Assembly (NCBI RefSeq): GCF_016793225.1
Contig: NZ_JAEUMN010000143.1
Location: 36,206-100,205 of the forward strand
Source of the DNA: Phenylobacterium sp.
GTDB taxonomy: Bacteria; Pseudomonadota; Alphaproteobacteria; Caulobacterales; Caulobacteraceae
Reading direction: 5' to 3'
DNA: 64,000 bases
Position 1 is the stretch's first letter; each line of letters opens with the position of its first letter. The notes under the pieces are model-generated. The model had not been told where the DNA came from. It did not search any database and was given only the letters and a program-made list of their open reading frames with translations. The position numbers and the translations under genes are program-made. Positions 13,712 through 32,696 of this stretch are shown here, piece after piece.

Positions 13712-13897
13712 GCTCAGCCTCTGGCCGCCATGGAACGAGGGGCGACGCCGGGCGGGTCGTGACGGTCGGCGCCCCGACGACGCCGAACCGGAGTCGTCAT
13801 GAGTGAGTCCTATCGGCTACCGATGAGGCTCCCGCAGCCTTCTCCCAACAGGCGAAGACTTCAAGCAAAAGGCGAGTGGCCGGGCCGTCGGCGCATC

Positions 13898-15608: not shown

Positions 15609-15626
15609 GAAGCAGAACCCCGGTTC
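15609..15626. promoter_or_regulatory. Module-2 operator copy 1
   Basis: GAAGCAGAACCCCGGTTC lies 73 bases before the DUF1330-like gene. It fits the motif GAAnnnGnAnnYCGGTTC shared by six promoter-located sites between 15.6 and 30.2 kb, and the outer arms form a 6-6-6 layout. Confidence 0.65.
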
Positions 15627-15699
15627 ACGTTATGGCGGAACTGGCGCATAGTGCCGGAAAGAGGCCGGGTCATCCGGTCCGCCATAGGGGGCTTCGCGC

Positions 15700-16392
15700 A
15701 TGAACGGGTACGGCACGCCGAACGTCGGCTACATCAGCGGCTGGCGGGATCGCACCGACGACACGCGGCCGATGTGGGCGCTCAATCTGATGCGCTATCG
15801 GCCCGTCGCGCAGTACGCGGACGGCCGCGCGACCACCATCACCGGCCAGGAGGCCGACGATCTCTATCGTCCGGAGGCCGAGCTGGCGGCCGTGGGCGCC
15901 GCGGGCGTGCTGCTGGCGCCCGTGGTGCATCAGCTGGTCGGTGACGGCGGCCGCTGGGACCGGGTGGCGATCGCAAAGTACCCGAGCCGCGTCTCCCAGC
16001 TCGACATGCAGCTGCTGCCCGAGTTCCAGGCTCGCGTGATCCACAAGCGGGCGGGCATGGAGTTCACGATCGTGCTGGCCACCTTCCTCCCGGACGATGC
16101 GCCGCCCGCGCCGGCCGAGGTGGGCTCTGCACCGCTCCTGCTGGTGCAGGTGGTGTCGGATCCGAAAGCTCCCGACGTCGCGGCCGGGATCGACGCCACG
16201 CCGGTGGCGGTCTTCGACGTCGAGGACACCATCATCGGCGACGAGCGCAAGTACGCCCAGGCGCGATGGCACATCGTGTCGGAGGCGGCGGGCGAAATCC
16301 TGCGCCAGCGGCCGCGGGTGGAGCACCCCGTGGACTATGCGCTGCTGATACGTCCCGAGCGCAATCGCCTGTCCGAGGCGTTCGCCCGATGA
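15700..16392 (+). CDS. DUF1330-like (dimeric alpha/beta barrel) protein
   Basis: A 230-residue soluble protein. The segment MWALNLMRYRPVAQYADG followed by a GQEADDLY-type stretch resembles the DUF1330/NIPSNAP-like ferredoxin fold, apparently duplicated (a second unit starts near residue 115, FTIVLATFLPDD). It has no assigned reaction. It is first in a three-gene unit with a sulfatase (ATGA overlap) and a haloalkane-dehalogenase-type hydrolase. The module-2 operator lies upstream. A role as an accessory enzyme in the same pathway is inferred only from position. Confidence 0.6.
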   Translation: MNGYGTPNVGYISGWRDRTDDTRPMWALNLMRYRPVAQYADGRATTITGQEADDLYRPEAELAAVGAAGVLLAPVVHQLVGDGGRWDRVAIAKYPSRVSQLDMQLLPEFQARVIHKRAGMEFTIVLATFLPDDAPPAPAEVGSAPLLLVQVVSDPKAPDVAAGIDATPVAVFDVEDTIIGDERKYAQARWHIVSEAAGEILRQRPRVEHPVDYALLIRPERNRLSEAFAR

Positions 16393-18056
16393 GCCTGCGC
16401 AAGCCCCTGGTCGTCGCGGCGGCGGTGCTGGCCGTCATCGGCGCGCTGGGCGTGGTCGCGGCCGCGAACTTCCGCGAGATCATCCTGTTCGTGGTGGGCA
16501 ACCGCGGAAAGGAGATCCCGGGGCCGAACATCGAGGTTGCGTGGCGGCAGGGGCCGCCTCAGCCCGCGGCCGGCGACCGGCCGCCCAACATCGTGTTCAT
16601 CCTGGCCGACGACCTGGGCATCAACGACATCTCGACCTACGGAGGGGGTGTGGCGCAGGGCCGCGTGCCCACCCCCAACATCGACGCCCTGGCGGCGAGC
16701 GGCGCGGTCATGCCGTGGGCCTATTCCGGAACGGCGGCCTGCGCGCCGTCGCGGGCGATGCTGATGACCGGGCGATACCCCACGCGGCACGGGTTCGAGT
16801 TCACGCCGACGCCGCCCGGCATGCAGCGCATGATGACCCTGTTCTACAACGACGGCACGCGCCCGCACCGGCTGATCCACGACGCGGAAGCCGAAAAGGC
16901 GCTTCCGCCGCAGGACCGGCAGGGGCTCCCCGGCTCCGAGGTGACCGTCGCCGAGGTGCTGAAGACGCGCGGCTACCACACGGTCCACATCGGCAAGTGG
17001 CACCTGGGCGAAGGCAAGGAATTCGGCGCGAACGCCCAGGGCTTCGATGAGAGCCTGTTGATGGCGAGCGGCATGTACCTACCGCCGGACGATCCGCAGG
17101 TGGTGAACGCCAAGCAGCCGTTCGACCCGATCGACCGATTCCTCTGGGCGCGGATGACGCACGCGGCCCAGTTCAACGGCGGGCCCCTGTTCGCGCCGCG
17201 CGGCTATCTCACCGACTACTACACCGACGAAGCGGTGAAGGTGATCCGGGCGAACCGCAACCGGCCCTTCTTCCTCTACCTGGCGCACTGGGGCGTCCAC
17301 AGCCCGCTGCAGGCCTCGAAGGCCGACTACGACGCCCTGCCCCAGATCAAGGACCACCGCCTGCGCGTCTACGCGGCCATGGTGCGGGCGCTTGATCGGA
17401 GCGTCGGACGCGTGATGCAGGAGCTGCGCGACCAGGGCCTCGCCGAGAACACCGTGGTGATCTTCACCTCCGACAACGGCGGCGCCGGCTACATCGGTCT
17501 CCCGGAGGTCAACAAGCCCTACCGGGGCTGGAAGCTGACCTTCTTCGAGGGTGGCATCCGGGTGCCCTACTTCGTGTCCTGGCCCGGAAAGATCGCGCCG
17601 GGCACGCGGTTGCCGGATCCGGTGAGCCACCTGGACCTCCTGCCCACCGTGGCCGCCGCCGCGGGCGCTGCGCCGCCAGCCGACCGGCCGATCGACGGCG
17701 CGAACCTCTTGCCCTACGTCACCGGCGGGCCGCGGCCGGCGAGCCCGCCGCACCAAGCGATCTTCTGGCAGGACGGGCACTACCAGGCGGTGCTGAAGGA
17801 CGGCTGGAAGCTGCAGACCTCGCAGGACCCGAAGAAGGACTGGCTGTTCCACCTCACCGTCGATCCCACCGAGCAGCGGAACCTGGCCGCGACGAATCCG
17901 GCCAAGGTCGCGGAGTTGAAGGCGGCGATCGCCGAGCACCGTCGCGGCGCCCGCGGCGCGCTCTATCCGGCCGCCGGGCAGATGCCCGTGGTGATCGACA
18001 AGACGCTCGAGCAGAAGGCGACCAAGGACGATGAGTACATCTACTGGCCCGGCTGA
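16389..18056 (+). CDS. Type I (formylglycine) sulfatase, membrane-anchored or exported
   Basis: A 555-residue sulfatase with an N-terminal hydrophobic segment (residues 7-27). The metal-binding DD is at 74-75 (FILADDLGINDIS). The C-x-P-S-R maturation motif starts at Cys118 (CAPSRAMLMTGRYPTRHG), where the Cys is converted to formylglycine. It would hydrolyse a sulfate ester in the periplasm. It overlaps the preceding stop by four bases and the following hydrolase by 26. It is clearly related to the second sulfatase at 28480-30120 (both share GFEFTPTP after the active site). The probable maturase is encoded at 30215-31195. Confidence 0.93.
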   Translation: MSLRKPLVVAAAVLAVIGALGVVAAANFREIILFVVGNRGKEIPGPNIEVAWRQGPPQPAAGDRPPNIVFILADDLGINDISTYGGGVAQGRVPTPNIDALAASGAVMPWAYSGTAACAPSRAMLMTGRYPTRHGFEFTPTPPGMQRMMTLFYNDGTRPHRLIHDAEAEKALPPQDRQGLPGSEVTVAEVLKTRGYHTVHIGKWHLGEGKEFGANAQGFDESLLMASGMYLPPDDPQVVNAKQPFDPIDRFLWARMTHAAQFNGGPLFAPRGYLTDYYTDEAVKVIRANRNRPFFLYLAHWGVHSPLQASKADYDALPQIKDHRLRVYAAMVRALDRSVGRVMQELRDQGLAENTVVIFTSDNGGAGYIGLPEVNKPYRGWKLTFFEGGIRVPYFVSWPGKIAPGTRLPDPVSHLDLLPTVAAAAGAAPPADRPIDGANLLPYVTGGPRPASPPHQAIFWQDGHYQAVLKDGWKLQTSQDPKKDWLFHLTVDPTEQRNLAATNPAKVAELKAAIAEHRRGARGALYPAAGQMPVVIDKTLEQKATKDDEYIYWPG

Positions 18057-19065
18057 GGACGACGGCGTGGAACGCGGGACGACGGACGACGGCGTGCCGT
18101 TCGCGCGGTCGCCGGACGCGGCCTTCGCTGGACTGCCGGACTATCCCTGGGGGCCCAGCTACGTCACGTTCGAGGGGCTGCGGATGCACTGTGTGGACGC
18201 CGGGCCCGCCGACGGGCCGGTGGCGCTGTTGCTCCACGGCATGCCCACGTGGAGCTACCTGAACCGGCGCATCATCGCCGGGCTGGTCGCCGCCGGATGG
18301 CGGTGCGTCGCGCCGGACCACATCGGTTTCGGGCGCTCGGACAAGGTCACCGATGACGGATGGTACTCCATCGCCCGCCACACCCGGGCCATGGCCCACC
18401 TCATCGCCGAGCTGAACCTGAAGGACGTGACCCTCTTCTGCCAGGACTGGGGCGGGCCCATCGGGCTGGCCCAGGCGGCCGAGACGCCCGAGCGCTTCGC
18501 CCGGCTGGTGATCATGAACACCTGGCTGCATACGCCGGAGTACGACTACGCCCAGCCGCTGCGCCGGTGGAACGAGGGCTGGAAGCCCGACGGCCTCTTC
18601 GGCGCGAACGTGCCCGACCGCATGTCGATCGGCTGGTTCATGATGCTGGCGACGCGGCGCATCGAGCGTCCGCACTTCTTCGCCGTGGTCCAGGGGCAGG
18701 AAACGCCGGAGCTGTCCGCCGCCGACGCCGAGGTGAGGCGGGCGTACGACGCCCCGTTCGCCGGCCTGGGGTACGCGGGCCACGCGGGCCCGCGGCGTTT
18801 CCCCCTCAGCCTGCCCTTCGACAATCCCGCAGGCGGCGCGGCCGAGGCGCAGACCCGCCACTTCCGGACCCTGCTGGACTGGAAGAAACCCATCCACTTC
18901 ATCTGGGGCGGGGCCGACGACGTCTTCACCACCGACCGCGGCCAAGCCTGGGCGGCCCGCTACCCGCACGCAACCTTCGACCTCCTGCCCGACGCCGCGC
19001 ACTTCCTGCAGGACACGCATGGCGACCGGATCGCCGAGCTGTTCCTCGCCCACGCCGCCACGTGA
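18031..19065 (+). CDS. Haloalkane dehalogenase-type alpha/beta hydrolase
   Basis: A 344-residue alpha/beta hydrolase. HGMPTWSYL forms the oxyanion region, the nucleophile is Asp139 in FCQDWGG with halide-stabilising Trp140 next to it, and the catalytic His lies near the C-terminus (DAAHFLQD). The segment FAGLPDYPWGPSYV before RMHCVDAGP is typical of DhlA/DhmA-like dehalogenases. Epoxide hydrolases share much of this, so the halide substrate is likely but not certain. The ATG at 18031 overlaps the sulfatase gene; a later start inside the extra 25-residue N-terminus is possible. It is last in a three-gene unit. Confidence 0.82.
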   Translation: MSTSTGPAEDDGVERGTTDDGVPFARSPDAAFAGLPDYPWGPSYVTFEGLRMHCVDAGPADGPVALLLHGMPTWSYLNRRIIAGLVAAGWRCVAPDHIGFGRSDKVTDDGWYSIARHTRAMAHLIAELNLKDVTLFCQDWGGPIGLAQAAETPERFARLVIMNTWLHTPEYDYAQPLRRWNEGWKPDGLFGANVPDRMSIGWFMMLATRRIERPHFFAVVQGQETPELSAADAEVRRAYDAPFAGLGYAGHAGPRRFPLSLPFDNPAGGAAEAQTRHFRTLLDWKKPIHFIWGGADDVFTTDRGQAWAARYPHATFDLLPDAAHFLQDTHGDRIAELFLAHAAT

Positions 19066-19098
19066 CCCGCCGAGCCGCGACGCATTCGAACTTGACCG

Positions 19099-19116
19099 GA
19101 ACCGGGATTTCGGTTC
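19099..19116. promoter_or_regulatory. Module-2 operator copy 2
   Basis: GAACCGGGATTTCGGTTC has 6-bp arms GAACCG and CGGTTC that are exact inverted repeats. It ends 31 bases before the start of the GST-fold gene at 19148, and it is the most symmetrical of the six copies. Confidence 0.75.
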
Positions 19117-19147
19117 GCTACCTTTGGACTGAGCAGAGGCCCCGAAC

Positions 19148-20188
19148 ATGACCGCCACCACGACCGACGGACGCGTCCTCCTGAACGGCGTGCCCGGCTC
19201 GCCCTATACCCGCAAGATGCTGGCGCTGCTGCGCTACCGGCGGATCCCCTACAAGCTCGTGCTGGCCTCTCATGGCGCGGCGGGACTGCCCACCGCCAAG
19301 GTCAACCTGCTGCCCACCTTCTACTTCCCGGACGAAACCGGCGCCCTGGTGGCCGTCAACGACTCCACGCCCATCCTGCGCCGGCTTGAGCGCGAGCACG
19401 CCGGCCGTTCGGCGCGTCCGTCCAACCCCGCCCTGGCGTTCATCGACTCGCTGATCGAGGACTACGGAGACGAGTGGCTGACCAAGGCCATGTTCCACTA
19501 CCGCTGGGCCTACAAGGCCGACATCGCGCGGGCTTCGGCCATCCTGCCCGCCTGGCGGCGCTCGCGCATGCCGGACGCGGAGCTGAAGGCGGCTGGCGCC
19601 GAGGTGGCGAACCGCCAGATCCCGCGCCTGCGCTACGTGGGCTCCAACGAGATCACGGGCCCGATCATCGAGGCCAGCTACGCGCGCTTCTTGGACGCCT
19701 TCGAGGCGCACCTGCGCGAACACGCCTTCATACTGGGGCAACGCCCCGGCGGCGGCGACTTCGGCTGCTATGGCCAGCTCACCCAGCTCGCGCTGTTCGA
19801 CCCCACGCCCATGGCGGTGACCGAGGCGCGCGCGCCGCGCGTCTTCGCGTGGACGGGCGCCGTCGAGGACCTCTCGGGCCTGGAGCCCACCGAGGCGGAC
19901 TGGTTCGACCCTGCGGCGCTGCCGCAGACGGTGAAGGCGATCCTGGGCGAGATCGGCCGCGTCTACGCTCCACTGCTGCTCGCCAACGCGAAGGCGCTGC
20001 GCGAGGGCGCCGAACAGGTGGAGACCGAGATCGACGGCGGCCGCTGGGTGCAGCAGCCCTTCACCTACCAGGGCAAGTGCCTGCAGTGGCTGCGCGAGGA
20101 GTACGCCGCCCTGGGGCCGGCCGATCGCAAGGCGGCCGACGCAGCCCTGGCGGGGTCGGGCTGCGAGGTGCTGCTGCAGGGGCTGTGA
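19148..20188 (+). CDS. Glutathione S-transferase-fold protein, long form (paralogue 1)
   Basis: A 346-residue protein, much longer than the roughly 210 residues of standard GSTs. A thioredoxin-like N-domain opens LLNGVPGSPYTRKMLALLRY and includes NDSTPILRRLE where canonical GSTs have the ES-AI gamma-glutamyl site. A long helical C-domain contains GDEWLTKAMFHYRW. Paralogues lie at 20199-21197 and 23353-24510 with the same landmarks. Candidate roles are ether or thioether cleavage, dehalogenation or isomerisation with glutathione. It has its own operator copy 31 bases upstream and is convergent with paralogue 2. Confidence 0.8.
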   Translation: MTATTTDGRVLLNGVPGSPYTRKMLALLRYRRIPYKLVLASHGAAGLPTAKVNLLPTFYFPDETGALVAVNDSTPILRRLEREHAGRSARPSNPALAFIDSLIEDYGDEWLTKAMFHYRWAYKADIARASAILPAWRRSRMPDAELKAAGAEVANRQIPRLRYVGSNEITGPIIEASYARFLDAFEAHLREHAFILGQRPGGGDFGCYGQLTQLALFDPTPMAVTEARAPRVFAWTGAVEDLSGLEPTEADWFDPAALPQTVKAILGEIGRVYAPLLLANAKALREGAEQVETEIDGGRWVQQPFTYQGKCLQWLREEYAALGPADRKAADAALAGSGCEVLLQGL

Positions 20189-20198
20189 GGGGTCCGGT

Positions 20199-21197
20199 TC
20201 AGCCGGCGGCGAGCCAGCGGCGGCAGTCGGCGGCCTCCAGGATCGCGTCAAGCCGCGGCGACGCCGCGGCGGCGTAGCGGGCCTTCAGCGTGGCCAGCGA
20301 CTTGGCGTGGTACTTCTGGGGCGGCTGCACGTAGGGCCGGCCGGCGAGGTCCACAGTGAAGCTCTCCTGCCCCGCCGCCAGCGCATCCGAATTGGCCTGC
20401 GACCAGGGCAGGAAGTAGCGGCCCACATAGGCCAGGAGCGGCGCCAGGGTAGGCTGCAGCGACTCCCAGGTCTCGAACGGGCCGTCGTCGCGGGGCTCCA
20501 TCATCCGATGGCACCAGCCCAGCACGGCGGGGCCCCGGGCCAGGATGCCCGCGCCGCAGGTCGGGTCGATGGAGGCCTCGTAGATCTGGGCCGACAGACC
20601 GAAATCCCCGAAGGCGGGGCGGCCGCCGAACAGGTACTTGCGCTGGGCGAAGTGCGGCTCGAGCAGATCCAGCAGTTCGAACCAGTAGTCGGTGATCAGG
20701 TGCGCCGTCTCCGCCGACGAGCCCACGAAGTGGCCGCGGCCGGTCATCCGCTCCTGGATCATCTTCTGGCGCGCAGCCACCGTCTCGGCGTCCGCGCCGG
20801 GCATGGACAGGCGCGCCAGGGTGAGCGCCGAGGCCTCCTGGTCGACCTTGTCCCACCAGCGATGGTGGAACATCAGCTTGTTGCCCCATTCGTCGCCGAA
20901 CTCTTCGAGCAGCACGGAAAGGAAGGCGAGGTCCGGGTCGTCGGGATGGATCGAGGGTTCAGGCGCCTGGCGCTCGACCTGCTCGATGATCGGGGTGGAG
21001 TCCTGTACGCCCTCGCCGGCCGGGGTGGCGACCGTCGGCACGATCGGGAGGCGGGCGACGGCCTTGTATTCCTCTTCGGTGGCCGCGTTGCGCGGGATCC
21101 AGCGGTGCGGGATGCCCTTGTAGCGGAAGTAAGAGCGCACCTTCACCGAGTAGGGTGACATCTCGGAGCCGTAGATCCGGTACACGCCTTCGCTCAC
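20199..21197 (-). CDS. Glutathione S-transferase-fold protein, long form (paralogue 2)
   Basis: A 332-residue protein clearly related to its convergent neighbour. It shows GSEMSPYSVKVRSYFRYKG, VQDSTPIIEQVER, GDEWGNKLMFHHRW and KYLFGGRPAFGDFGL. The start is GTG, with GGGAGGAAACG upstream. Ser/Tyr in the MSPYS segment is the likely glutathione-activating region. It lies downstream of a TetR gene on the same strand, with a 103-base gap that holds a module-2 operator 34 bases from this start, so it probably has its own controlled promoter. Confidence 0.8.
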   Translation of the reverse strand: MSEGVYRIYGSEMSPYSVKVRSYFRYKGIPHRWIPRNAATEEEYKAVARLPIVPTVATPAGEGVQDSTPIIEQVERQAPEPSIHPDDPDLAFLSVLLEEFGDEWGNKLMFHHRWWDKVDQEASALTLARLSMPGADAETVAARQKMIQERMTGRGHFVGSSAETAHLITDYWFELLDLLEPHFAQRKYLFGGRPAFGDFGLSAQIYEASIDPTCGAGILARGPAVLGWCHRMMEPRDDGPFETWESLQPTLAPLLAYVGRYFLPWSQANSDALAAGQESFTVDLAGRPYVQPPQKYHAKSLATLKARYAAAASPRLDAILEAADCRRWLAAG

Positions 21198-21230
21198 GAA
21201 CGTTTCCTCCCGCCGACCGGCCGCTTTTGC

Positions 21231-21248
21231 GAACCGGAGTTCCGATTA
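21231..21248. promoter_or_regulatory. Module-2 operator copy 3
   Basis: GAACCGGAGTTCCGATTA, the motif in reverse orientation. It lies between the TetR stop and the GTG of GST paralogue 2, 34 bases from that start. The left arm is exact and the right arm is degenerate. Confidence 0.6.
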
Positions 21249-21300
21249 TCATGGCGTCCGGGGGATGGGGAGGCAATACCGCGGCCGGCGCCTACGCGGC

Positions 21301-21969
21301 TCAGGCGGCCGTCTTCTCGAGGCCCAGGTAGCGGATCAGCAGAAGCCCCAGCTCGTCGGCCAGGCGAGGGTCATCGATGGAGAACGGCCCCGGTCCGTGC
21401 AGAAGCTGGGTGATGATCTGGCCGTGGATCATCCGCACGGCGAGCTGCGCGCGCTCGGGGAAGCCAGCCTCGACGGACAGGCCCCTGCCTTCGAGCATGT
21501 CCTGGATCTTCCGGGCCTCGAAGATCTCGAGCTGGCGCATCGACGGCCAGACGTCCTGGCCGCGCAGGCTGAGCTCGAACAGCGCGCGGAAGTAGCCCTC
21601 GATGCGGCCCATCGACCGCGCGGAGTTGGCGACGAGCCGGACGAACACCTTGTCCAGCGGATCGGTGGCGCAGGCCGGATCGGCGAAGAAGGTGGTGATG
21701 TTCTCGGCCGACCGCTGGGCCATGTGGGCCTGCAGCGCGAAGAACAGGGCCTCCTTGTCCTGGAAGCGCCGGTAGAAGCTGCCGACGGAACATCCGGCGC
21801 GCCGGGCGATGTCGGCCACGTGGGCCTGCCAGAAGCCATGCTCGGCGAACGCGCGCTCTCCAGCCTTCAGCAGGCGGTCGCGCTGCTCGCGGCTGCGCGC
21901 CTGGTAGGCCGGAAGGGCCCACGCCGGATCGTCGGTCGGCGGCGTCTCGGCGGACTTGGCTCTGGCCAT
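21301..21969 (-). CDS. TetR-family regulator (module 2, paralogue A)
   Basis: A 222-residue TetR protein with helix-turn-helix HVADIARRAGCSVGSFYRRFQDKEALF. The DNA-reading helix GCSVGSFYRRF is almost the same as that of the regulator at 27699-28415 (GCSIGSFYRRF), and the surrounding helices align well, so the two are paralogues that may read the same motif. It sits in the minus-strand run of module-2 genes, 88 bases after the MFS stop. Only a weak, gapped likeness to the module-2 operator is seen before its start (around 21991-22005). Confidence 0.9.
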   Translation of the reverse strand: MARAKSAETPPTDDPAWALPAYQARSREQRDRLLKAGERAFAEHGFWQAHVADIARRAGCSVGSFYRRFQDKEALFFALQAHMAQRSAENITTFFADPACATDPLDKVFVRLVANSARSMGRIEGYFRALFELSLRGQDVWPSMRQLEIFEARKIQDMLEGRGLSVEAGFPERAQLAVRMIHGQIITQLLHGPGPFSIDDPRLADELGLLLIRYLGLEKTAA

Positions 21970-22057
21970 GGGCGGCAGCGACTCAGGTTCTCGAAAATCC
22001 CGTTATCCTCTAGCCCCTGCGCGCGACGATTGCACAGGGCGCAGTACCCGGATCGGC

Positions 22058-23341
22058 TCAGGGCGCGGCGGGCGCCGCGTTTCGGGGCAAGCGGCGCGCG
22101 GCGAGCAGGAAGAACACCACCGACACCAGCTCTCCGATCGCGGCCAGCGAGATCGCGTAGCCGAGGCTGCGCGTCCCGAAAGCCGGCGCCAGCGCGTCGC
22201 TGGTCATGCCGATGACCAGGGGGCCCAGGCCGAAGCCCACCAGCGCGATGATGAAGAGGGTCCACGCCGAGGCGAAGGCCCGCGTGCGGGGCGGCGACAG
22301 GGTCTGGATCGTCCCGAAGACCGGGCCCGTGAAGCTGTTGCCGAGGAAGCCCGGCAGGATCAGGCAGGCGATCGCCAGCTCGGCCGTGGGCGCGAGATAG
22401 GCCGAGATGAAGAGGGGCGCGCGCACGCCGATCATCAGCGCCGGAAGCCAGGCGTACCAGCGGTTGTCGCGCCGGCCGAGCAGGTCGGCGAACCAGCCGC
22501 CGGCCAGGGTGCCGACGACGCCGGTGACGCCGGAGATCAGGCCGAGCGCCAGCCCCGCCTCGCCCGTGGACAGGCCGTGGAAGCGGATCATGAAGGCGGG
22601 ATTCCACTGCAGCGCGCCGTACGAGGTGAAGGCGTGCAGGGCCGAGCCCAGGACGAGGTAGTTGTAGGCCGGGATCTTCATCAGGACCGCCAGCGCCTCG
22701 CGGGTGGTGGGCGCGGGTTCGGTGGAGACCTCCCCCGTGCGCGGCGGCTCCTTGAGAGTCAGGGCGACCACCGCCGCGACCACGACGCCGGGCAGGCCCA
22801 CCACGATGAAGGCGGTGCGCCAGTCGAAGGCCTGGTTGAGCCAACCGCCCGCGAGCAGCCCCACGAGGATGCCGATCGGCACGCCGCAAGAGAAGACGGC
22901 CAGCGCCGTGGCGCGCTTCCCGTGCGGGAAGAGGTCGGCCAGCATGGAGTGTCCGGCCGGTCCCGCCCCGGCCTCGCCGACCGCCACGAAGATCCGCGCC
23001 ACGAGCAGCTGGGGGAAGTTCATGGCCAGCCCGCAGACGGCGGTGGCGCCGCTCCACAGGGCGAGGCAGCCGGCGATGATGCCCTTGCGCGAGGTGCGGT
23101 CGGCAAGGCGCGCGATCGGCAGGCCCGCGGCGGCGTAGAAGAGGGCGAAGCCCAGGCCCGAGAGCAGCCCGATCTGGGTGTCGGTGAGCCCCAGTTCCTT
23201 GCGGATCGGCTCCACCAGGATGGAGAGCACCTGCCGGTCCACGTAGTTGATCACATAGACCACAAGCAGCAGGGCGAGCGCGTAGCGGGCGTACCCGCGC
23301 GAGACGCCCCCCGCTGCGCCGGCCGTGTCGGTCGCCGCCAT
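22058..23341 (-). CDS. MFS transporter, spinster-like (module 2)
   Basis: A 427-residue transporter with about 12 membrane segments. NYVDRQVLSILVEPIRKELGL and GLPIARLADRTSRKG are spinster-type signatures. It is a paralogue of the module-1 transporter at 703-1998. The start follows GGGGAGGCGGG. It is 11 bases downstream of GST paralogue 3, so it is part of an operon with that gene and the DsbA-like gene. It probably moves the module-2 substrate or a desulfated product across the inner membrane. Confidence 0.9.
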   Translation of the reverse strand: MAATDTAGAAGGVSRGYARYALALLLVVYVINYVDRQVLSILVEPIRKELGLTDTQIGLLSGLGFALFYAAAGLPIARLADRTSRKGIIAGCLALWSGATAVCGLAMNFPQLLVARIFVAVGEAGAGPAGHSMLADLFPHGKRATALAVFSCGVPIGILVGLLAGGWLNQAFDWRTAFIVVGLPGVVVAAVVALTLKEPPRTGEVSTEPAPTTREALAVLMKIPAYNYLVLGSALHAFTSYGALQWNPAFMIRFHGLSTGEAGLALGLISGVTGVVGTLAGGWFADLLGRRDNRWYAWLPALMIGVRAPLFISAYLAPTAELAIACLILPGFLGNSFTGPVFGTIQTLSPPRTRAFASAWTLFIIALVGFGLGPLVIGMTSDALAPAFGTRSLGYAISLAAIGELVSVVFFLLAARRLPRNAAPAAP

Positions 23342-23352
23342 TCCCGCCTCCC

Positions 23353-24510
23353 CTATTCAACCGCCAGTCGGCTGCGCACACGCGTCAGCCGCCGCGCGAG
23401 GCGCACGGCCACGACGCCGTCGGCGCCGGCCGCACGCGCGAAGTCCAGCGCCGCCTCGCGCTCCACGCCGGAAAGCCCGGCCGTGAAGTCCAGGGCGCGC
23501 TGCAGGATCCACAGCGAGTGGCCCAGGGCCTGCTGCTCGATCGCCACGCCGTGATAGTCCACCACGATGGGTCCCAGCGCGGGCTGGTCGGCCCCCTCGG
23601 CCGAGACGAACCCGCCGGCCGGCGCATCGGGGTTGGCCTCGGCCCAGGCGTTGAAGCGGCCTGCGGTCAGGACCAGCTCCTCCGCGTAGCCGCGGAAGAC
23701 GTGCCGCATGAACGCTGTCAGCGTCTCGGGGACGACGTCGTCGGCCGGGAGCTCGCGGGCACGGTCCGGGAATTCGGGCGTCTGCAGCTCGCCGCCGTTG
23801 ATGCGCTCGATCCAGCGGAAGACCAGCGGCGCCGTTCGCTGCATGAGGTGCAGCGGATAGGGATCGCGGCCCAGGTGACCGAACATCGGTCCCATGAGGG
23901 CGTAGTCGCCCCGACTCGGCGCGCCCCCCAGCAGGTAGGGGTGCTGCGAGAGGTGCGCGTTCAGCAGCGCCAGGGTCTCGCCGTAGACCCGTTCGATGGT
24001 GGGGATGGTTCGCGGTTCGATGCCGAGCATCGGCAGGTACGAGGACATGCGCGAGGCCACCCGCTGGCCCAGGCGTTCGACCTCCTCCGGCGGCGCGGGA
24101 AACCGCAGCGAGCGGCCGAACTCGCCGACGACGAAGCCCTCGTTCACATCGAGGAAGTTCCACCGGTAGTGCATGGCCGGCTTGGCGAGTCCGCGGTCGC
24201 CGAGGACCTCGAGCAGCAGCGTCGCCAGGGTCTGGCGCGGGCCCATGCGCTGCGCGTGGGGGTCGGGGTAGCGCCGCTCCAGCGCGTCCAGGATGGCCGT
24301 GGAGTCCTGGACGATCGTCCCGTCCGCGAACTCGACCACCGGGATGCGGTGCGTGTCGACCGCCGGCTTGATCACCTCGCGGTAGCGAGGGTGCGAGGGG
24401 AAGCGCTCGACGTGACGGACGCCGCGCGCCCGGAGGAACGCCCGCACCTTGGCGGTGTAGAGCGACGCGGGCGCTCCGTAGAGCCAGAGGTCGGGCGCTT
24501 CGCCGGTCAT
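23353..24510 (-). CDS. Glutathione S-transferase-fold protein, long form (paralogue 3)
   Basis: A 385-residue protein, the longest and most diverged of the trio. It opens LWLYGAPASLYTAKVRAFLR and has VQDSTAILDALE, KPAMHYRW and HPYLLGGAPSRGDYAL, matching its two relatives. A C-terminal extension of about 60 residues (from VVDYHGVAIEQQALG) is not in the others. The start ATG overlaps the stop of the upstream DsbA-like gene (ATGA), so translation is coupled. Tight operon position with a DsbA/HCCA-isomerase-like protein, itself a glutathione-dependent fold, supports a glutathione-based reaction sequence. Confidence 0.8.
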   Translation of the reverse strand: MTGEAPDLWLYGAPASLYTAKVRAFLRARGVRHVERFPSHPRYREVIKPAVDTHRIPVVEFADGTIVQDSTAILDALERRYPDPHAQRMGPRQTLATLLLEVLGDRGLAKPAMHYRWNFLDVNEGFVVGEFGRSLRFPAPPEEVERLGQRVASRMSSYLPMLGIEPRTIPTIERVYGETLALLNAHLSQHPYLLGGAPSRGDYALMGPMFGHLGRDPYPLHLMQRTAPLVFRWIERINGGELQTPEFPDRARELPADDVVPETLTAFMRHVFRGYAEELVLTAGRFNAWAEANPDAPAGGFVSAEGADQPALGPIVVDYHGVAIEQQALGHSLWILQRALDFTAGLSGVEREAALDFARAAGADGVVAVRLARRLTRVRSRLAVE

Positions 24511-25160
24511 GTGGTCCCGCGACGTTTCAGGCCCTTCTGGAGCATGCGCCACTTGAGCTGGTCGAACCGGTCCTGGCCGAAGAAGGCCTCACCGCCGAAC
24601 ACCATCATCGGCACTCCGTAGTGCCCGCCCTCGCGCTGGGCGACCTGGCTGGCCTCGACGATGGCGCGGTGGCGGTCGGGGTCGCCGTCGACGGCGCCGG
24701 ACAGCTCGTCGTAGTCGAGTCCGGCCCGCTCGGCCGCGCGGCGCAGGTGGTCGCCCTCGTGCCAGTTCTCGACGGACCCGCCCCAGATCAGCCGGCTGAC
24801 CTCGTCCAGGAACGGCAGCCCGCGGCCCCGCTCGGCGGCGGCGACGCCCAGGTAGGTGAGGCGGTGGATGTGGGGCTGTTCCTTGGGGTAGCTGCCGTCT
24901 GGAAGCCGGAACACCGGATCGGGCCGCGGCCAGCGGAGCGGCAGGCCCAGGAACTCGGCCTCACGCCGGATGTCGGCTTGGAAGTAGCTGAACCACAGCG
25001 GATCCCGCGTCTCGAAGAACTCGGGCGTGCGCACCGCGATCGGGAAGATCGGGCGGACTTTGCACGTCACCTCGTACTCGTCCTCGAGGGCCCGGAGCCT
25101 GGGCGTCACGAGGTAGGAGTAGGGCGAGCGGAAGGACCAGTAGAGGTCGTAGCTGAGCAT
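24507..25160 (-). CDS. DsbA-family / 2-hydroxychromene-2-carboxylate isomerase-like protein
   Basis: A 217-residue thioredoxin-fold protein of the kappa-GST/HCCA isomerase group. YWSFRSPYSYLVTPRL carries the serine that activates glutathione in this group, and GVPMMVFGGEAFFGQDRFD is the C-terminal signature. No CxxC is present, which argues against a disulfide oxidoreductase. HCCA isomerase acts in naphthalene and other polycyclic aromatic degradation; here the substrate is unknown. It is first gene of the unit with GST paralogue 3 and the MFS, and follows a strong hairpin 3' of the TonB receptor gene. Confidence 0.83.
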   Translation of the reverse strand: MLSYDLYWSFRSPYSYLVTPRLRALEDEYEVTCKVRPIFPIAVRTPEFFETRDPLWFSYFQADIRREAEFLGLPLRWPRPDPVFRLPDGSYPKEQPHIHRLTYLGVAAAERGRGLPFLDEVSRLIWGGSVENWHEGDHLRRAAERAGLDYDELSGAVDGDPDRHRAIVEASQVAQREGGHYGVPMMVFGGEAFFGQDRFDQLKWRMLQKGLKRRGTT

Positions 25161-25184
25161 ATCGTCCCCGGAGCCCGCGTGGGC

Positions 25185-25213
25185 CCGGCCGGCCGCGTAG
25201 CGCGGCCGGCCGG
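25185..25213. terminator. Strong GC hairpin between TonB receptor gene and the downstream operon
   Basis: Two 13-base arms (CCGGCCGGCCGCG and its exact complement) flank a 3-base loop. The hairpin lies 9 bases after the TonB receptor stop and 25 bases before the next gene on the minus strand. No T-tract follows, so it may be an mRNA-stabilising or attenuating structure rather than a classic intrinsic terminator. Confidence 0.6.
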
Positions 25214-25221
25214 AAGCCGCC

Positions 25222-27543
25222 TCAGAACTTCACCGTGGCTTCGATGCCGTAGGTGCGCGGCGGGGCGTACCAGCCGACGAAGCCTTGCGCCTGGGCCGTG
25301 CCGCCCGCCGAGATGAAGGCGTTGAGCGGCTGGAGCGTGGCCTGCGCGAAGTAGTCGCGGTCGAAGATGTTCTTGCCGTAGGCCGAGATGCGCCAGTTGC
25401 CCTTCTCGGGCGTCAGGCCCACGCGCAGGCCGACCAGCGTCACCGAGTCTTGCAGGCCGCGCGGGTCCAGCAGCGGCTCGAGGAACTTCGAGCTGGTGTA
25501 GCTGACGTCGGCGTTGACGAAGATCTCGAGGCCCGTGCCCGCCAGCGGCCGCTGGTACTGGCCGGCGAGACTCCAGGTCCACTTCGGACTGTGGGACGGG
25601 GTCTTGCCGTTGTAGTTGCAGGTCCCCGGCGAGGTCCCGTTGGCCGGCTGGCCGGCGTAGCACTGGCCCGCCGTGTAGTCGGTGAACTCGGCGTCCATGT
25701 AGCCGAGGGAGCCCTTGATCGTGAGCTCGCGGATCGGCCGGAACTCGGCGTCGGCCTCGACGCCCTGCACCCGACGGTCGCCGGCGTTGGCCACGATGAA
25801 ACCGGATCCGGTGAGCGGGTTCAGGATCGAGTCCTGGAAGTCCTTCAGCTTCATCCGGTAGGCGTCGACGTTCAGCACCAGCCGGTTGTCGAGCAGCAGC
25901 GACTTCATGCCGACCTCGATGGTCTCGGAGTTCTCGGCGTCGAACTCGACCGGCACGCCCACGGCCGACGAGCGGGCGTTGTAGCCGCCCGTCTTATAGC
26001 CCGTGGCGGCCAGGGCGTAGAGCATCACGTCGGGGGTCACGTCGTACTGGACGGTCGCCGACCAGGTGATCTTGTCCTCGTTGCGCTTGACCTTGCCCAG
26101 GTGGTTGACCGGGAAGACCGTTCGCGCCGCCGGGGACGCCGTCGGGTTCACGTCGCCGTCGAGGAAGGCGTTCTTCTTGTCGTACGAGTACCGCAGGCCG
26201 CCGACGAGCCGGAAGCTGTCGGTGACGTTGAAGGTCGCCTGGCCGAACAGCGCCCAGCTCTGGGTGTCCTGGGTGTAGTAGAAGATGCCGGTGTCGCCGG
26301 GCGTGAACCGGCGGGCGGGCGGGAGCACGCGGTTGGCGTGCAGGCCCAGCACCGTGCGTGAGGTGTAGGTCAGGGTCTCGGAGAACAGGTACACGCCCGC
26401 GAGGTACGACACGCGCTGGTCCGCCGGCGAGGCGATCCGCAGCTCCTCGGAATAGCCTTCGGCCCGGAGGCGCTGAGAGCCGGTGGCGGTGTTCTGCGGC
26501 AGGCCGTCGGCCGCCAGCGAGACGATCTTGTCCTCATAGCCGTTGAAGGCGGTGATCGAGGTCAGGGTATGCCCGCCGGGCAGGTCGATGTCGAAGGTCG
26601 CCGAGACGCCGTAGACGTCGGTGTTGTTGTCGCCCTCGACGTCGTCGTCGACCACGTGGTCGCGGTCGTTGAAGTTGCGGAACGGGCGGCCCACCGCCTG
26701 CGCGGCGGTCAGGAAGCCCGGGGTCGCGATGCCGGTGGGCGTGGAGGCCGCCAGGGTCTCGGGCGTGCAGCAGTTGGCCTCGAGCCGGGCGTAGTAGCCG
26801 ATGAAGTTGCCGGTGATGCCGTCGCGGGGCTGCCACTTCAGGCGGCCTCGCACGCCCCACTGCTCGCTGCCGTTGACGTCATCGCCGTCGAAGAGGTTCG
26901 TTTCGTAGCCGTCGCGATCGCTGACCCAGAAGGACAGCCGGCCCGCCAGGCTCTCGGTGAGCCCGCCGCCCACGTAGCCGCTCAGTCCCCGGTCCTCGTA
27001 GTTGCCGGCCCGCGCCGTAAGCTGCGCTTCGAAGGTCTGGGTCGGCTCGCGCGAGGTGATGTTGATCGCGCCCACGGGGGTGTTGCGGCCGTACAGCGTG
27101 CCCTGGGGACCGCGCAGGACTTCCACGGTCGAGATGTCCTGGAGGTTCCCCTGAATGGGCCCCGCCGCCAGGATGTAGACGCCGTCGATGAAGATGCCGA
27201 CGGACGACTCGATGCCGGGGTTGGTGCCCGACGTCCCGATGCCGCGCACGAAGACGGTGGTGTTGCGGTTGTTGTTCGACTGCGAGATCGAAACGGAAGG
27301 AATGAAGCGGGCCAGTTCGGTGACGTTCGCGACGCCCGTCTTCTCCAGGAACTCGCCGCTCACGGCGGTCACCGACATCGGGACGTCCTGGATGTTCTCG
27401 GCGCGCTTGTTGGCGGTGACGATCAGCGTCTCCACTTCGGCGACCCCGCTGGCGGTCTGCGCCAGCGCCGAGGACGCCGCGCCCGCCACCAGCGCGAACG
27501 CCGTGGTGACGAGCAGTTTCGAAGCAAGGCTGCGCCTCGGCAT
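25222..27543 (-). CDS. TonB-dependent outer-membrane receptor (module 2)
   Basis: A 773-residue receptor. It has a signal peptide (MPRRSLASKLLVTTAFALVA), a plug with VETLIVTANKRAENIQDVPM and RGPQGTLYGRNTPVGAINI, and a barrel ending in phenylalanine (EATVKF). The plug style (RGIGTSGTNPG, SVGIFIDGVY) is common among Caulobacterales and sphingomonad receptors for complex organic substrates. The start follows GGGGAGGATC. Two module-2 operators lie upstream (27591 and 27690). It probably imports the module-2 substrate, perhaps still sulfated. Confidence 0.94.
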   Translation of the reverse strand: MPRRSLASKLLVTTAFALVAGAASSALAQTASGVAEVETLIVTANKRAENIQDVPMSVTAVSGEFLEKTGVANVTELARFIPSVSISQSNNNRNTTVFVRGIGTSGTNPGIESSVGIFIDGVYILAAGPIQGNLQDISTVEVLRGPQGTLYGRNTPVGAINITSREPTQTFEAQLTARAGNYEDRGLSGYVGGGLTESLAGRLSFWVSDRDGYETNLFDGDDVNGSEQWGVRGRLKWQPRDGITGNFIGYYARLEANCCTPETLAASTPTGIATPGFLTAAQAVGRPFRNFNDRDHVVDDDVEGDNNTDVYGVSATFDIDLPGGHTLTSITAFNGYEDKIVSLAADGLPQNTATGSQRLRAEGYSEELRIASPADQRVSYLAGVYLFSETLTYTSRTVLGLHANRVLPPARRFTPGDTGIFYYTQDTQSWALFGQATFNVTDSFRLVGGLRYSYDKKNAFLDGDVNPTASPAARTVFPVNHLGKVKRNEDKITWSATVQYDVTPDVMLYALAATGYKTGGYNARSSAVGVPVEFDAENSETIEVGMKSLLLDNRLVLNVDAYRMKLKDFQDSILNPLTGSGFIVANAGDRRVQGVEADAEFRPIRELTIKGSLGYMDAEFTDYTAGQCYAGQPANGTSPGTCNYNGKTPSHSPKWTWSLAGQYQRPLAGTGLEIFVNADVSYTSSKFLEPLLDPRGLQDSVTLVGLRVGLTPEKGNWRISAYGKNIFDRDYFAQATLQPLNAFISAGGTAQAQGFVGWYAPPRTYGIEATVKF

Positions 27544-27590
27544 GTCAGATCCTCCCCGATTGAAACGTCGTTTTCTTGTTGGCGGATTGT

Positions 27591-27608
27591 GAATGTGAAT
27601 TCCGGTTC
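27591..27608. promoter_or_regulatory. Module-2 operator copy 4
   Basis: GAATGTGAATTCCGGTTC, 48 bases upstream of the TonB receptor start. It contains the invariant CGGTTC half and the distal GAA. It is one of two copies in this 155-base gap. Confidence 0.68.
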
Positions 27609-27689
27609 AAGTCAACCCGGACCGGCGCCTGGACTGCCCGCGGGTGTCGGGCGAGCCAAACGCCACCCCGCCTGACGCAAGGAAAGGAT

Positions 27690-27707
27690 GAACCGGAATT
27701 ACGCTTC
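27690..27707. promoter_or_regulatory. Module-2 operator copy 5, overlapping the TetR stop codon
   Basis: GAACCGGAATTACGCTTC has arms GAACCG and CGCTTC, which match as inverted repeats at five of six positions. It spans the stop codon of the TetR gene and lies 147 bases from the TonB receptor start. Two sites about 100 bases apart could allow cooperative binding or looping. Confidence 0.65.
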
Positions 27708-28415
27708 CGTAAAGCGGGCGGAGCGGCGTTCCGGCGGCGCAGTCACGCCGATGCAGGCCGCCAGCATCCGCGTCAGCCGGTCGATCACGAACGGTGGCGC
27801 GACCGCCTCCTGCTGCACCACGTCCCGCCGCAGGACGCGCTGGATCAGGATCGCTTCGACTGACCGCAGGCCCAGCGCGCAGGCGTCGTCCAGGGCGTCC
27901 GGCAGCCCCTCGCCCCGCGAACGCAGGAACGCCGCCAGGCGAAGACCCGACGCCGTGTCCGCCGCCCACAGCGCCGGCACGTACAGTCGGCCGGCGCCCG
28001 CCAGCATCCGCTGGAACAGGGCGCGGAAGAATCCGGGGTGGCGCTCGATGACCTGGGCGGTGTTGCGCACCAGCACCTCCAGCACCTCGTAGACGGGCTG
28101 GCCGGCGCGCTCGGGCCGGCTGAGGAAGCGCTCCATGTTGCGCTCGATCCGGTGGGCGAACTGCAGGTGCAGCGCCCGGAACAGCGCCTCCTTGTCGCGG
28201 AAGCGGCGGTAGAAGCTTCCGATGGAACAGCCTGCGGCCGCGGCGATGTCGCCCACGTGGGCTTCGTCATAGCCCTTGCGGGCGAAGACCTCCTCGCCGG
28301 CCTTCAGGAGCCGGGCCTGCGCCTCGCGGCTGCGGGCCTGGTTGGCGGGCATCACGCCGTCGACGCCGGTCAGGTCGAAGGGTTCCATCGCCAAGCGCCA
28401 CCGTTCCCTCGACAT
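27699..28415 (-). CDS. TetR-family regulator (module 2, paralogue B)
   Basis: A 238-residue TetR protein with helix-turn-helix HVGDIAAAAGCSIGSFYRRFRDKEALF. It is a paralogue of the regulator at 21301-21969, with a matching approach segment (ANQARSREAQARLLKAGEE against AYQARSREQRDRLLKAGER). The start is uncertain: MSRERWRLAM at 28415, or the inner ATG at 28388; neither has a strong ribosome site. Together the two TetR proteins may read the same six-site motif and respond to different ligands, or form heterodimers; this is inference. Confidence 0.88.
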   Translation of the reverse strand: MSRERWRLAMEPFDLTGVDGVMPANQARSREAQARLLKAGEEVFARKGYDEAHVGDIAAAAGCSIGSFYRRFRDKEALFRALHLQFAHRIERNMERFLSRPERAGQPVYEVLEVLVRNTAQVIERHPGFFRALFQRMLAGAGRLYVPALWAADTASGLRLAAFLRSRGEGLPDALDDACALGLRSVEAILIQRVLRRDVVQQEAVAPPFVIDRLTRMLAACIGVTAPPERRSARFTEA

Positions 28416-28479
28416 CGCGGCGGGCTTCGCCGCGGGCGTCCATGCTGCTCAACGGCGACGCGCGAACCGGCGCGAGGCC

Positions 28480-30120
28480 TCAGTTCCCCCAGTAGACATA
28501 CTCGTCGTCGTCCCGCTGGGGCTCGATCAGCGAATGATCCAGCATCACGGGCGATTGACCAAGCTCGGGCCAAAGCGGCGGAGCCTGCTGGGCGTCGTGA
28601 TCGGCGAGAAGGCGCTTCAGCTCCGCCACCTTCTCAGGCCTCGCCTGGGCCAGATTGACCCGCTCGGTGGGATCCGACGACAGGTCGTAGAGCCAGTCCT
28701 TCGCCGGCCGCTCCGTCACCTGCAGCTTCCAGTCGCCGGCGCGGACGACGCGGTAGGGGCCCGTGCGCCAGAACAGGACATCGTGGGGTCGCCCGGTCTT
28801 CCGCGCGCTGACGAAGGGCATCAGGTCCACGCCGTCCATCGGCCGGTCCCTGGGCATGGCGGCGCCCGCCGCGGCCACAGAGGTGGCGAAGATGTCGAAG
28901 TGGGAAACCGGCGCGTGGTAGGTCTTCCCGGGCCGGATCGCCGCGGGCCACTTCATCAGCATGGGCACGCGGATGCCGCCCTCGAAGAACGTCTGCTTCC
29001 AGCCGCGGAAGGGTCGATTGATCTCCTCGAGACCGATGTAGTAGGCGCCCCCGTTGTCGCTGGTGAAGATCACCAGGGTGTTCTCCTCGAGCCCTTGCTC
29101 CTGCAGCGCCTGCAGGACGCGCCCGACGTTTCGGTCGAGCTGGCGGATCATGGCGGCGTAGACCCGCTCGCGGTGGTCCGCGATGTGCGAAAGCGCCCGG
29201 TAGTCCTCGTGCGTCGCCTGGAGAGGCGTGTGCGGGGCGTTGTAGGCGAGGTACATGAAGAACGGCCGGTTCCGGTTGGCCGCCACGGCCGCGACGGCCT
29301 CGTCCGTCAGGTAGTCGGTCATGTGGCGTTGCGGCTGGAACGCCTCGCCGCCGTCCTTGCGGACGTAGAACTGCAGGGTCGACCAGAGCTGCATGTCGAT
29401 CGGGTCGAAGCCCTGGATCGAATTGACCACCCGCGGATCCTCCCGCGGGAGGAACATCGAGGCGCCGCCGGTGAACCCCAGCGTCTCCGAGAAGCCGCGC
29501 TTCTGTGGCTGGAACTTGGGCGCCTCGCCGAGGTGCCACTTGCCCAGCTGCATCGTGTGGTAGCCCTCCTTCTGGAGAAGCTCGCCCAGCATGATCTGGT
29601 CGGTGGGGACGCCCATCTCGACCATGGGAATCACGTCCTTCTCCCGCTCCGGGAAGTAGACGGGGTTCAGCTTGCCGTAGTGGTGGGCCCGCACCTGGCG
29701 GGCGAACCGCAGCGGCGTGGGCGTGAACTCGAAGCCGTAGCGGGTTGGATAGCGGCCGGTGAGCAGCGCCGCGCGCGAGGGCGCGCAGGTGCCGTGCCCG
29801 GAGTAGGCCTGCTCGAAGCTCACGCCCTGGCGGCCGATGGAGTCGATGTAGGGCGTCGGAACCGAGCCGCCCGCCACGCCCCCGCCGTTGAAGCTGAGGT
29901 CGTTGAAACCGAGATCGTCGGCGACGATCAGGATGATGTTCGGGGGACGCTTGCCCGACGGCGGACGCGCGGGGCCCTGCTGCCAGGTCACGGCGCGCGG
30001 CGGACCAGCCTGCACCGCCGGCCTGTCGACGGGCACGTTGGACGGCGCCTGCGCGGCGGCCTGATGCGCCGCTCCCGCCACCACCGCGGCCGCAGCCAAC
30101 AGCGCTCGTTTGAACCGCAT
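28480..30120 (-). CDS. Type I (formylglycine) sulfatase, exported
   Basis: A 546-residue sulfatase with a cleavable signal peptide ending near residue 24 (AHQAAAQAP). Metal-binding DD at 68-69 (LIVADDLGFNDLS) and the maturation motif at Cys112 (CAPSRAALLTGRYPTRYG). The start has GGGAGG seven bases upstream. It is a paralogue of the sulfatase at 16389-18056. It lies downstream of the formylglycine-generating enzyme on the same strand, with a module-2 operator in the gap. It probably removes sulfate from the imported substrate in the periplasm. Confidence 0.93.
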   Translation of the reverse strand: MRFKRALLAAAAVVAGAAHQAAAQAPSNVPVDRPAVQAGPPRAVTWQQGPARPPSGKRPPNIILIVADDLGFNDLSFNGGGVAGGSVPTPYIDSIGRQGVSFEQAYSGHGTCAPSRAALLTGRYPTRYGFEFTPTPLRFARQVRAHHYGKLNPVYFPEREKDVIPMVEMGVPTDQIMLGELLQKEGYHTMQLGKWHLGEAPKFQPQKRGFSETLGFTGGASMFLPREDPRVVNSIQGFDPIDMQLWSTLQFYVRKDGGEAFQPQRHMTDYLTDEAVAAVAANRNRPFFMYLAYNAPHTPLQATHEDYRALSHIADHRERVYAAMIRQLDRNVGRVLQALQEQGLEENTLVIFTSDNGGAYYIGLEEINRPFRGWKQTFFEGGIRVPMLMKWPAAIRPGKTYHAPVSHFDIFATSVAAAGAAMPRDRPMDGVDLMPFVSARKTGRPHDVLFWRTGPYRVVRAGDWKLQVTERPAKDWLYDLSSDPTERVNLAQARPEKVAELKRLLADHDAQQAPPLWPELGQSPVMLDHSLIEPQRDDDEYVYWGN

Positions 30121-30202
30121 GGACCAGCCTCCCACGTCCGCGGGAAGCGTACGCGCGCATCCCGTCATCACGCGCGGCGAGCGCGCCCGGGAAGCAATAC
30201 CG

Positions 30203-30220
30203 GAACCGGTATTCTCATTC
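30203..30220. promoter_or_regulatory. Module-2 operator copy 6, overlapping the FGE stop codon
   Basis: GAACCGGTATTCTCATTC, 83 bases before the sulfatase start. It overlaps the stop of the formylglycine-generating enzyme gene. A perfect palindrome AATACCGGAACCGGTATT (30196-30213) overlaps its left part. Confidence 0.65.
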
Positions 30221-31195
30221 AATATCCCGCGCGGCGCCGCGACGCGCCACGCAGCGGAATCCGATGTGGGAGGTCGGGCTGTCGAGGGGCTGGGGATGTC
30301 GCGCCGCGGGCCGGTAGCGGCGGCAGTAGCTCTCCGCGCAGAGGTGCGACCCGCCCTTGAGCACCTTGCGGCCCATGGGGATGTCGGGAGTCTGCGGGTC
30401 GTAGCTCTCCGATTCGACGGCGAGCCGGGCCCGGGGCGGGCCGCAGCAGGCCTTGCCGCTCTCGGCCGTGTCCGTGGCGAACCAGTCCACAGTCCACTCC
30501 CAGACGTTGCCGATCATGTCGAAGAGGCCGAATCCGTTCGGCGGAAAGACGCCGACGGGCGAGGTGCGGGCCCAGCCGTCTTCCAGCAGGTTCTGCCAGG
30601 GGAACTCGCCCTGCCAGTAGTTGGCCATGGCGCGGCCCTCCGGCGCCAGCTCCTGGCCCCAGGTGAACGGCTCGCCCTCGCGCCCGCCGCGCGCGGCGTA
30701 CTCCCATTCCGCCTCGGTCGGCAGCGACTTGCCCGCCCAGCGCGCGTAGGCGGCGGCGTCGGCGTAAGCGACCTGCACGACAGGGTGATCGAGGATGTCG
30801 TCGATGGAGCTGTCGGGACCCAGCGGGTGTCGCCAGTCGGCGCCGAAGACGAAGGACCACCACTGGCCGGGGTCGCCGGTGTCGACGGGGCCGGGCGTGG
30901 GCATGAAGACGGCCGAGCCTGCGCGCGCCATCTCCGGCGGCATTCCCGGGTAGTCGCGGGGATCGGGCGCGATCTCGGCGAAGGTGACGTAGCCGGTCGC
31001 AGCGACGAACTCGGCGAACTGCCGGTTCGTCACGGGATGGGTGTCGATCCAGAAGTCGCCGACGGCCGCCCGGCGTACGGGCGCCTCTTCCGGATAGTGC
31101 GCGTCGGACCCCATGAGGAAATCGCCGCCGCGAATCAGGGTCATCCCCGCGAGCTTCGACCGCCTGGCGGCCTTGGGCTTCAACTTCGAACTCAC
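30215..31195 (-). CDS. Formylglycine-generating enzyme (SUMF1 family), sulfatase maturase
   Basis: A 326-residue member of the SUMF1/EgtB/PvdO fold. Unlike many relatives it keeps both copper-binding cysteines of true formylglycine-generating enzymes, Cys286 and Cys291 in GGSHLCAESYCRRYR, followed by IGFRC. It would oxidise the Cys of the CAPSR motif in unfolded sulfatases, using oxygen. The N-terminal part has IRGGDFLMGSDAHYPEEAP, typical of the family. The start is GTG. Its place directly upstream of a sulfatase, with a second sulfatase 12 kb away, supports this role strongly. Confidence 0.92.
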   Translation of the reverse strand: MSSKLKPKAARRSKLAGMTLIRGGDFLMGSDAHYPEEAPVRRAAVGDFWIDTHPVTNRQFAEFVAATGYVTFAEIAPDPRDYPGMPPEMARAGSAVFMPTPGPVDTGDPGQWWSFVFGADWRHPLGPDSSIDDILDHPVVQVAYADAAAYARWAGKSLPTEAEWEYAARGGREGEPFTWGQELAPEGRAMANYWQGEFPWQNLLEDGWARTSPVGVFPPNGFGLFDMIGNVWEWTVDWFATDTAESGKACCGPPRARLAVESESYDPQTPDIPMGRKVLKGGSHLCAESYCRRYRPAARHPQPLDSPTSHIGFRCVARRGAARDIE

Positions 31196-31942: not shown

Positions 31943-31957
31943 GGCCCGCTGCCCCGG

Positions 31958-32608: not shown

Positions 32609-32696
32609 TCGTCTCTTGTCGTTCACCGGTGGGGGTATCCGGCGAAGCGTCTGGTTTCAGGGGGTTTGGAGAGGAGTGGCGGCCTACCACCAACGC

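Follow-up and report, generated by a model that had tools for sequence, protein, structure and literature searches.

An 18-bp imperfect palindrome as predicted operator of a TetR-family regulon of sulfatase, glutathione S-transferase and TonB receptor genes

The locus described here raises the question of whether short repeated sites standing before sulfatase, glutathione S-transferase (GST) and TonB receptor genes, on both strands and over some 15 kb, join these genes into one regulon, and which protein would read them. The original prediction answered that they do, with a single inducing signal for the whole set. The window, that is, the complete 64,000-nucleotide stretch of DNA analyzed, carries the cluster listed below; gene calls around the sites come from a GC3 heuristic, whose over-long starts label some promoter sites as intragenic.

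15700–16392, plus strand: DUF_A, no Pfam family found
16389–18056, plus strand: sulfatase A, CAPSR motif, N terminus membrane-anchor-like by eye
18031–19065, plus strand: haloalkane-dehalogenase-like hydrolase, CQDWGG motif
19148–20188, plus strand: GST1, long glutathione S-transferase, GST-fold model
20199–21197, minus strand: GST2, assigned by Pfam
21301–21969, minus strand: TetR2, best candidate repressor, TetR_N domain (2e-14)
22058–23341, minus strand: MFS transporter
23353–24510, minus strand: GST3, assigned by Pfam
24507–25160, minus strand: DsbA-like protein
25222–27543, minus strand: TonB-dependent receptor
27699–28388, minus strand: TetR1, paralogue of TetR2 with a near-identical recognition helix, TetR_N domain (1.4e-15)
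28480–30120, minus strand: sulfatase B, CAPSR motif, N terminus signal-peptide-like by eye
30215–31195, minus strand: FGE-type protein (formylglycine-generating enzyme), FGE-sulfatase domain (4.2e-78)

The plus strand thus carries DUF_A, sulfatase A, the dehalogenase and GST1, and the order on the minus strand is FGE, sulfatase B, TetR1, TonB receptor, DsbA-like protein, GST3, MFS, TetR2 and GST2. The two sulfatases share 52% identity. The gene at 15700–16392 had been labeled DUF1330, for which Pfam gives no support at E values up to 1.

The motif is present at all six predicted coordinates. Its original form, GAAnnnGnAnnYCGGTTC, fits exactly at 15609, 19099, 27591 and 30203 and with one mismatch at 21231 and 27690. 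With ≤1 mismatch allowed on both strands, the window yields seven matches (19099 twice, once per strand) against a shuffle mean of 0.47. Because 21231 and 27690 miss this pattern, it was dropped in favor of a better description, the 18-bp imperfect palindrome GAACnnnAATTCCGGTTC, a consensus derived from 32 distinct sites in other genomes. With the sites aligned, one half of the palindrome, CCGGTTC, is strong and the other is looser. Mismatches to the palindrome GAACCGGAATTCCGGTTC number four at 15609, two at 19099, three at 21231, three at 27591, two at 27690 and four at 30203. At ≤4 mismatches the window holds seven places, compared with a mean of 0.24 and a maximum of 3 in 100 shuffles; the seventh, at 43232, is intragenic. 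Each of the six cluster sites precedes a gene start; for 30203 this start is taken as the ATG at 30120:

15609–15626, plus strand: operator-like site, 74 bp before the DUF_A–sulfatase A–dehalogenase unit; exact to the original pattern and the weakest of the six
19099–19116, no strand assigned: predicted operator site, 32 bp before GST1; exact to the original pattern on the plus strand, one mismatch on the minus strand; TTGAC at −7
21231–21248, minus strand: predicted operator site, 34 bp before GST2; identical 18-mer at the GST2 orthologue in the related locus L080
27591–27608, plus strand: predicted operator site, 48 bp before the TonB receptor; TTGAC at −7; identical 18-mer at the L080 orthologue
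27690–27707, minus strand: predicted operator site, the second one upstream of the TonB receptor (147 bp); overlaps the tetR1 stop codon
30203–30220, minus strand: predicted operator site, 82 bp before the sulfatase B ATG; overlaps the stop codon of the FGE gene; identical 18-mer at the L080 orthologue

No operator site was found before the FGE gene of the window.

A motif scan of the 4.6-Mb genome and of relatives revealed sites that are rare in the genome, concentrated in the cluster and conserved elsewhere in the genus. The pattern GAANNNNNANNYCGGTTC occurs at eight places in the genome, five of them within the cluster. The palindrome at ≤3 mismatches occurs at six (four in the cluster, one on contig C26 and one on contig C151), and a reversed control at one. 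A profile built from 32 sites of other genomes reported 27591, 27690, 21231 and 19099 only (E 10; 150 of 999 candidates scored). In a window scan with the relatives' profile, 30203 scores 7.0 bits and 15609 scores 4.6 bits, the latter equaled by a place at 13785. Genome matches on C62, C193 and C26 were set aside, as profile R1 was silent there at E 10; the one on C62 lies inside a called ORF. Taken as a set, the motif is not equally frequent in coding sequence or at random positions, according to the shuffles and the genome scan. For five of the six cluster sites, either the genome scan or their conservation in L080 gives good support.

The operator-like site on contig C151 (L011:8978-8995, genome G000) differs from 27690 at one of 18 positions. 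It is absent from the report of the profile, for which 150 of 999 candidates were scored, and reaches 11.6 bits in a direct search. It ends 31 bp upstream of a 198-codon gene, for which no Pfam family was found, followed by a zinc-dehydrogenase-like gene; the site and these genes may belong to the regulon as a distant member.

Conservation was assessed in 32 related loci (545 kb), where thresholds of ≤2, ≤3 and ≤4 mismatches gave 19, 40 and 55 sites, where shuffles averaged 0, 0.17 and 2.8; the maximum of 30 shuffles at ≤3 mismatches was 2. Related sites across these loci are not independent, and three of the loci (L082, L083 and L084, with one ≤3-mismatch site each) were fetched for holding a match. 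The nearest cluster, L080 in genome G411, keeps the window gene order from sulfatase B to GST2 and has sites at sulfatase B, the tetR1 3′ end (four mismatches), the TonB receptor, MFS and GST2, of which those at sulfatase B, the TonB receptor and GST2 are the 18-bp identities listed above. No FGE match was found in L080 at E 1e-15. Across the related loci, sites precede orthologues of GST1, GST2, GST3, the TonB receptor, MFS, sulfatase B and, once, FGE; in other genomes with other gene orders they also precede an AMP-binding ligase and lie near genes for nitronate monooxygenase, acyl-CoA dehydrogenase and enoyl-CoA hydratase. The MFS and TetR1 genes flank a site in L072, L073 and L075. A DUF3604 protein gene (L077:11444-13402) stands divergent to GST1, with an operator site between the two.

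We then related the palindrome to the TetR genes of the cluster across 101 genomes of the genus, scoring at most 28 TetR candidates per genome. Homologues of TetR1 (E 1e-25, TetR2-type proteins included) occur in 18 genomes and the palindrome at ≤2 mismatches in 16. The two coincide: 10 of the 18 genomes with a TetR homologue have a match, against six of the 83 without (Fisher p = 1.1e-5), while the reversed control shows no association (4 of 18 against 23 of 83; p = 0.78). Since the genus totals are 27 motif sites and 31 control matches, abundance alone shows nothing, and only the concentration is unusual: genomes with TetR genes hold 21 of the 27 motif sites and 5 of the 31 control matches. 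Eight of the 18 lack a match at two mismatches, and six of these eight have sites with three or four; in the fetched loci of G443 (a 3.6-kb contig) and G341 no sites were found. In the six genomes with a match and without TetR genes, the match is intra-ORF in G275, G181, G472 and G476, 192 bp before a GST1 paralogue in G403 and 123 bp before an ORF in G445. GST1 homologues (E 1e-60) are present in 66 of the 101 genomes, compared with 18 carrying TetR genes; being far commoner, the long GSTs probably have a role wider than the regulon.

The sites are also placed in a promoter-like manner. Among 38 sites hand-picked for a clear downstream gene, 16 have TTGAC within 35 bp upstream (a stretch that includes the first four bases of the site), whereas each of five control windows has it at none or one of the 38. 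The element lies at −7 in three cases, at −14 in one and at −28 to −32 in 12; within the window it accompanies two of the six sites only (19099 and 27591, both −7). An element at −7 would place the operator between −35 and −10, and one at −28 to −32 would place it over −10 and the start, a spacing that fits repression.

The candidate readers are TetR1 and TetR2, which share 41% identity over 174 residues; the next TetR protein of the genome is a much weaker match (8.7e-10). Identity between the two reaches 70% across the DNA-binding part and falls to 26% across the remaining, ligand part. What we take to be the recognition helix reads CS[IV]GSFYRRF in the pair, the I/V position being the sole difference. 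Across 13 readable TetR1-type and 17 TetR2-type rows, the DNA-binding parts average 61% identity. Four of the 13 TetR1-type rows carry a YSIG[TA]FY helix instead, and sites with CCAG-type halves lie near such proteins (L081:2531-2548 and L088:2989-3006), a pattern suggestive of operator and helix having changed together, with too few cases to be firm. A variant operator, GAACCAGAATTCTGGTTC, considered for TetR1-type proteins with the other helix, gave few near matches, which are insufficient to claim it.

Genome rarity, conservation in relatives, linkage to TetR genes and promoter-like placement together argue that the sites are very probably operators of a TetR-family repressor regulon, read by TetR2 and/or TetR1. 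The part of the original prediction that joined the sulfatase, GST and TonB receptor genes, with the TetR proteins of the module as readers, is therefore well supported. Its single inducing signal is less certain: paralogues so alike in DNA binding (70% identity) and so divergent elsewhere (26%) allow for two signals.

Which of the paralogues does the reading is less clear-cut. It is possible, if not the likelier case, that TetR2 alone reads the sites, with TetR1, its paralogue, directed at another target or acting in an auxiliary capacity. Nine genomes have a single, TetR2-type match (E 1e-25), and eight of them (G435, G418, G427, G463, G383, G428, G416 and G022) contain ≤4-mismatch sites in the fetched loci; the ninth, G443 with its 3.6-kb contig, has none. 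As eight of these nine keep sites, TetR2 is the safest candidate regulator. Against TetR2 acting alone speak the I/V-only difference between the recognition helices of the window pair, the site between the MFS and TetR1 genes in three related loci, and genome G433 (88% complete), where strong sites accompany a TetR1-type gene only (E 1e-25), which suggests that TetR1 serves as well.

It is improbable that an unrelated regulator uses the sites as operators, or that they serve an activator, with the TetR genes as mere neighbors. Binding is so far predicted, and other TetR genes do lie nearby, one at 11647–12276 and two adjacent on the same strand within 31304–32626; however, these three proteins show 28–37% mean identity to the DNA-binding parts of the TetR2 type and have different helices. 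Co-occurrence of motif and TetR genes across the genus, retention of the sites through changing gene orders and their spacing from −35-like elements also argue against an unrelated reader. The TetR pair at 31304–32626 is situated near a cobalamin adenosyltransferase gene.

Finally, although the reversed control is equally frequent in the genus total and some matches elsewhere fall in coding sequence, the shuffles, the genome-wide scan, the out-of-sample profile and the TTGAC spacing make a chance or coding-bias pattern hardly credible, save for site 15609, where it keeps some weight.

Membership of the unit at 15700–19065 through site 15609 is accordingly tentative. A DUF_A-type gene, the first of the unit, occurs in three of the 101 genomes including that of the window, and in the two relatives that have the DUF_A–sulfatase A–dehalogenase unit no counterpart of 15609 was found in place. 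In G411 the unit lies downstream of a TonB receptor gene that the gene calls split into two ORFs; a five-mismatch site falls inside the first of these, at its called 5′ end. In L107 (9226-12272) a relative's TonB receptor gene is called as two overlapping ORFs, split between plug and barrel.

Under the preferred reading, TetR2, TetR1 or both would bind the 18-bp imperfect palindrome inside or next to promoters, and the bound repressor would block RNA polymerase until released by a small molecule, which we infer to be a sulfated compound or a product thereof. The putative targets are GST1, GST2, the TonB-receptor operon (TonB–DsbA–GST3–MFS–TetR2), sulfatase B followed by TetR1 and, with less confidence, the DUF_A–sulfatase A–dehalogenase unit. 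We infer operon limits, binding and repression alike, and autoregulation in the window would operate only via such presumed operons. A more doubtful extension is that duplication produced an AND gate, in which TetR paralogues with almost identical recognition helices and divergent ligand halves occupy the same operators and two signals, for example the sulfated substrate and the desulfated product, would be needed to release both.

The substrate is probably a sulfated compound. In the pathway that the gene set points to, the TonB receptor would import it, exported sulfatases matured by FGE would remove the sulfate and the MFS carrier would take the product inward, where the GSTs, the dehalogenase and, in relatives, the CoA enzymes may process it, presumably by glutathione- and CoA-dependent steps. 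A testable regulon and an operator consensus are thereby proposed for uncharacterized sulfatases, long GSTs and a TonB receptor, in a gene set shared by some members of one bacterial genus, and the regulators could serve in ligand screening to find the substrate. A substrate search via plasmid records gave only matches below 60% identity. The Novosphingobium pLA3 region, which has a TetR gene and a sulfatase, was rejected as a counterpart; it is otherwise annotated with other genes, with no GST in the 36 kb shown.

Both sulfatases resemble S1 sulfatases matured by FGE in their sulfatase domain, CxPxR motif (CAPSR in both) and FGE-type partner, which has a C-x4-C near its end. The solved chain nearest to sulfatase B is 6prm, an exo-4S-kappa carrageenan sulfatase; unlike the setting of that type, the neighbors here are GSTs, a dehalogenase and an MFS carrier, and no glycoside hydrolase was found among 19 window proteins scanned. 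GST1 is predicted to adopt a GST fold (model pLDDT 88.1), and the first PDB matches of the model are GSTs. As in StyI, represented by the top match 9qd3 (TM 0.63 by target length, 19% identity), the model has the GST fold, and GST1–GST3 show weak NCBIfam matches to IsoI; unlike StyI and IsoI, they are 332–385 residues long. A PDB sequence search with GST1 gave no match at E 0.1. The dehalogenase resembles haloalkane dehalogenases (best PDB match 6f9o at 4e-50, CQDWGG motif) but falls below the cut-off of the NCBIfam subfamily (231 against 265 bits), its function being predicted from sequence.

TetR/AcrR repressor regulons with palindromic operators, of the KstR, AcnR and TtgR type, are known. 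A search of published papers returned nothing on this cluster, which we regard as a new predicted regulon of the ordinary TetR kind, conserved in relatives. It shares with TetR/AcrR regulons the TetR_N domain, the imperfect 18-bp palindrome, sites near promoter-like elements and regulators encoded within the cluster; unlike typical members, it has two paralogous regulators that share a recognition helix.
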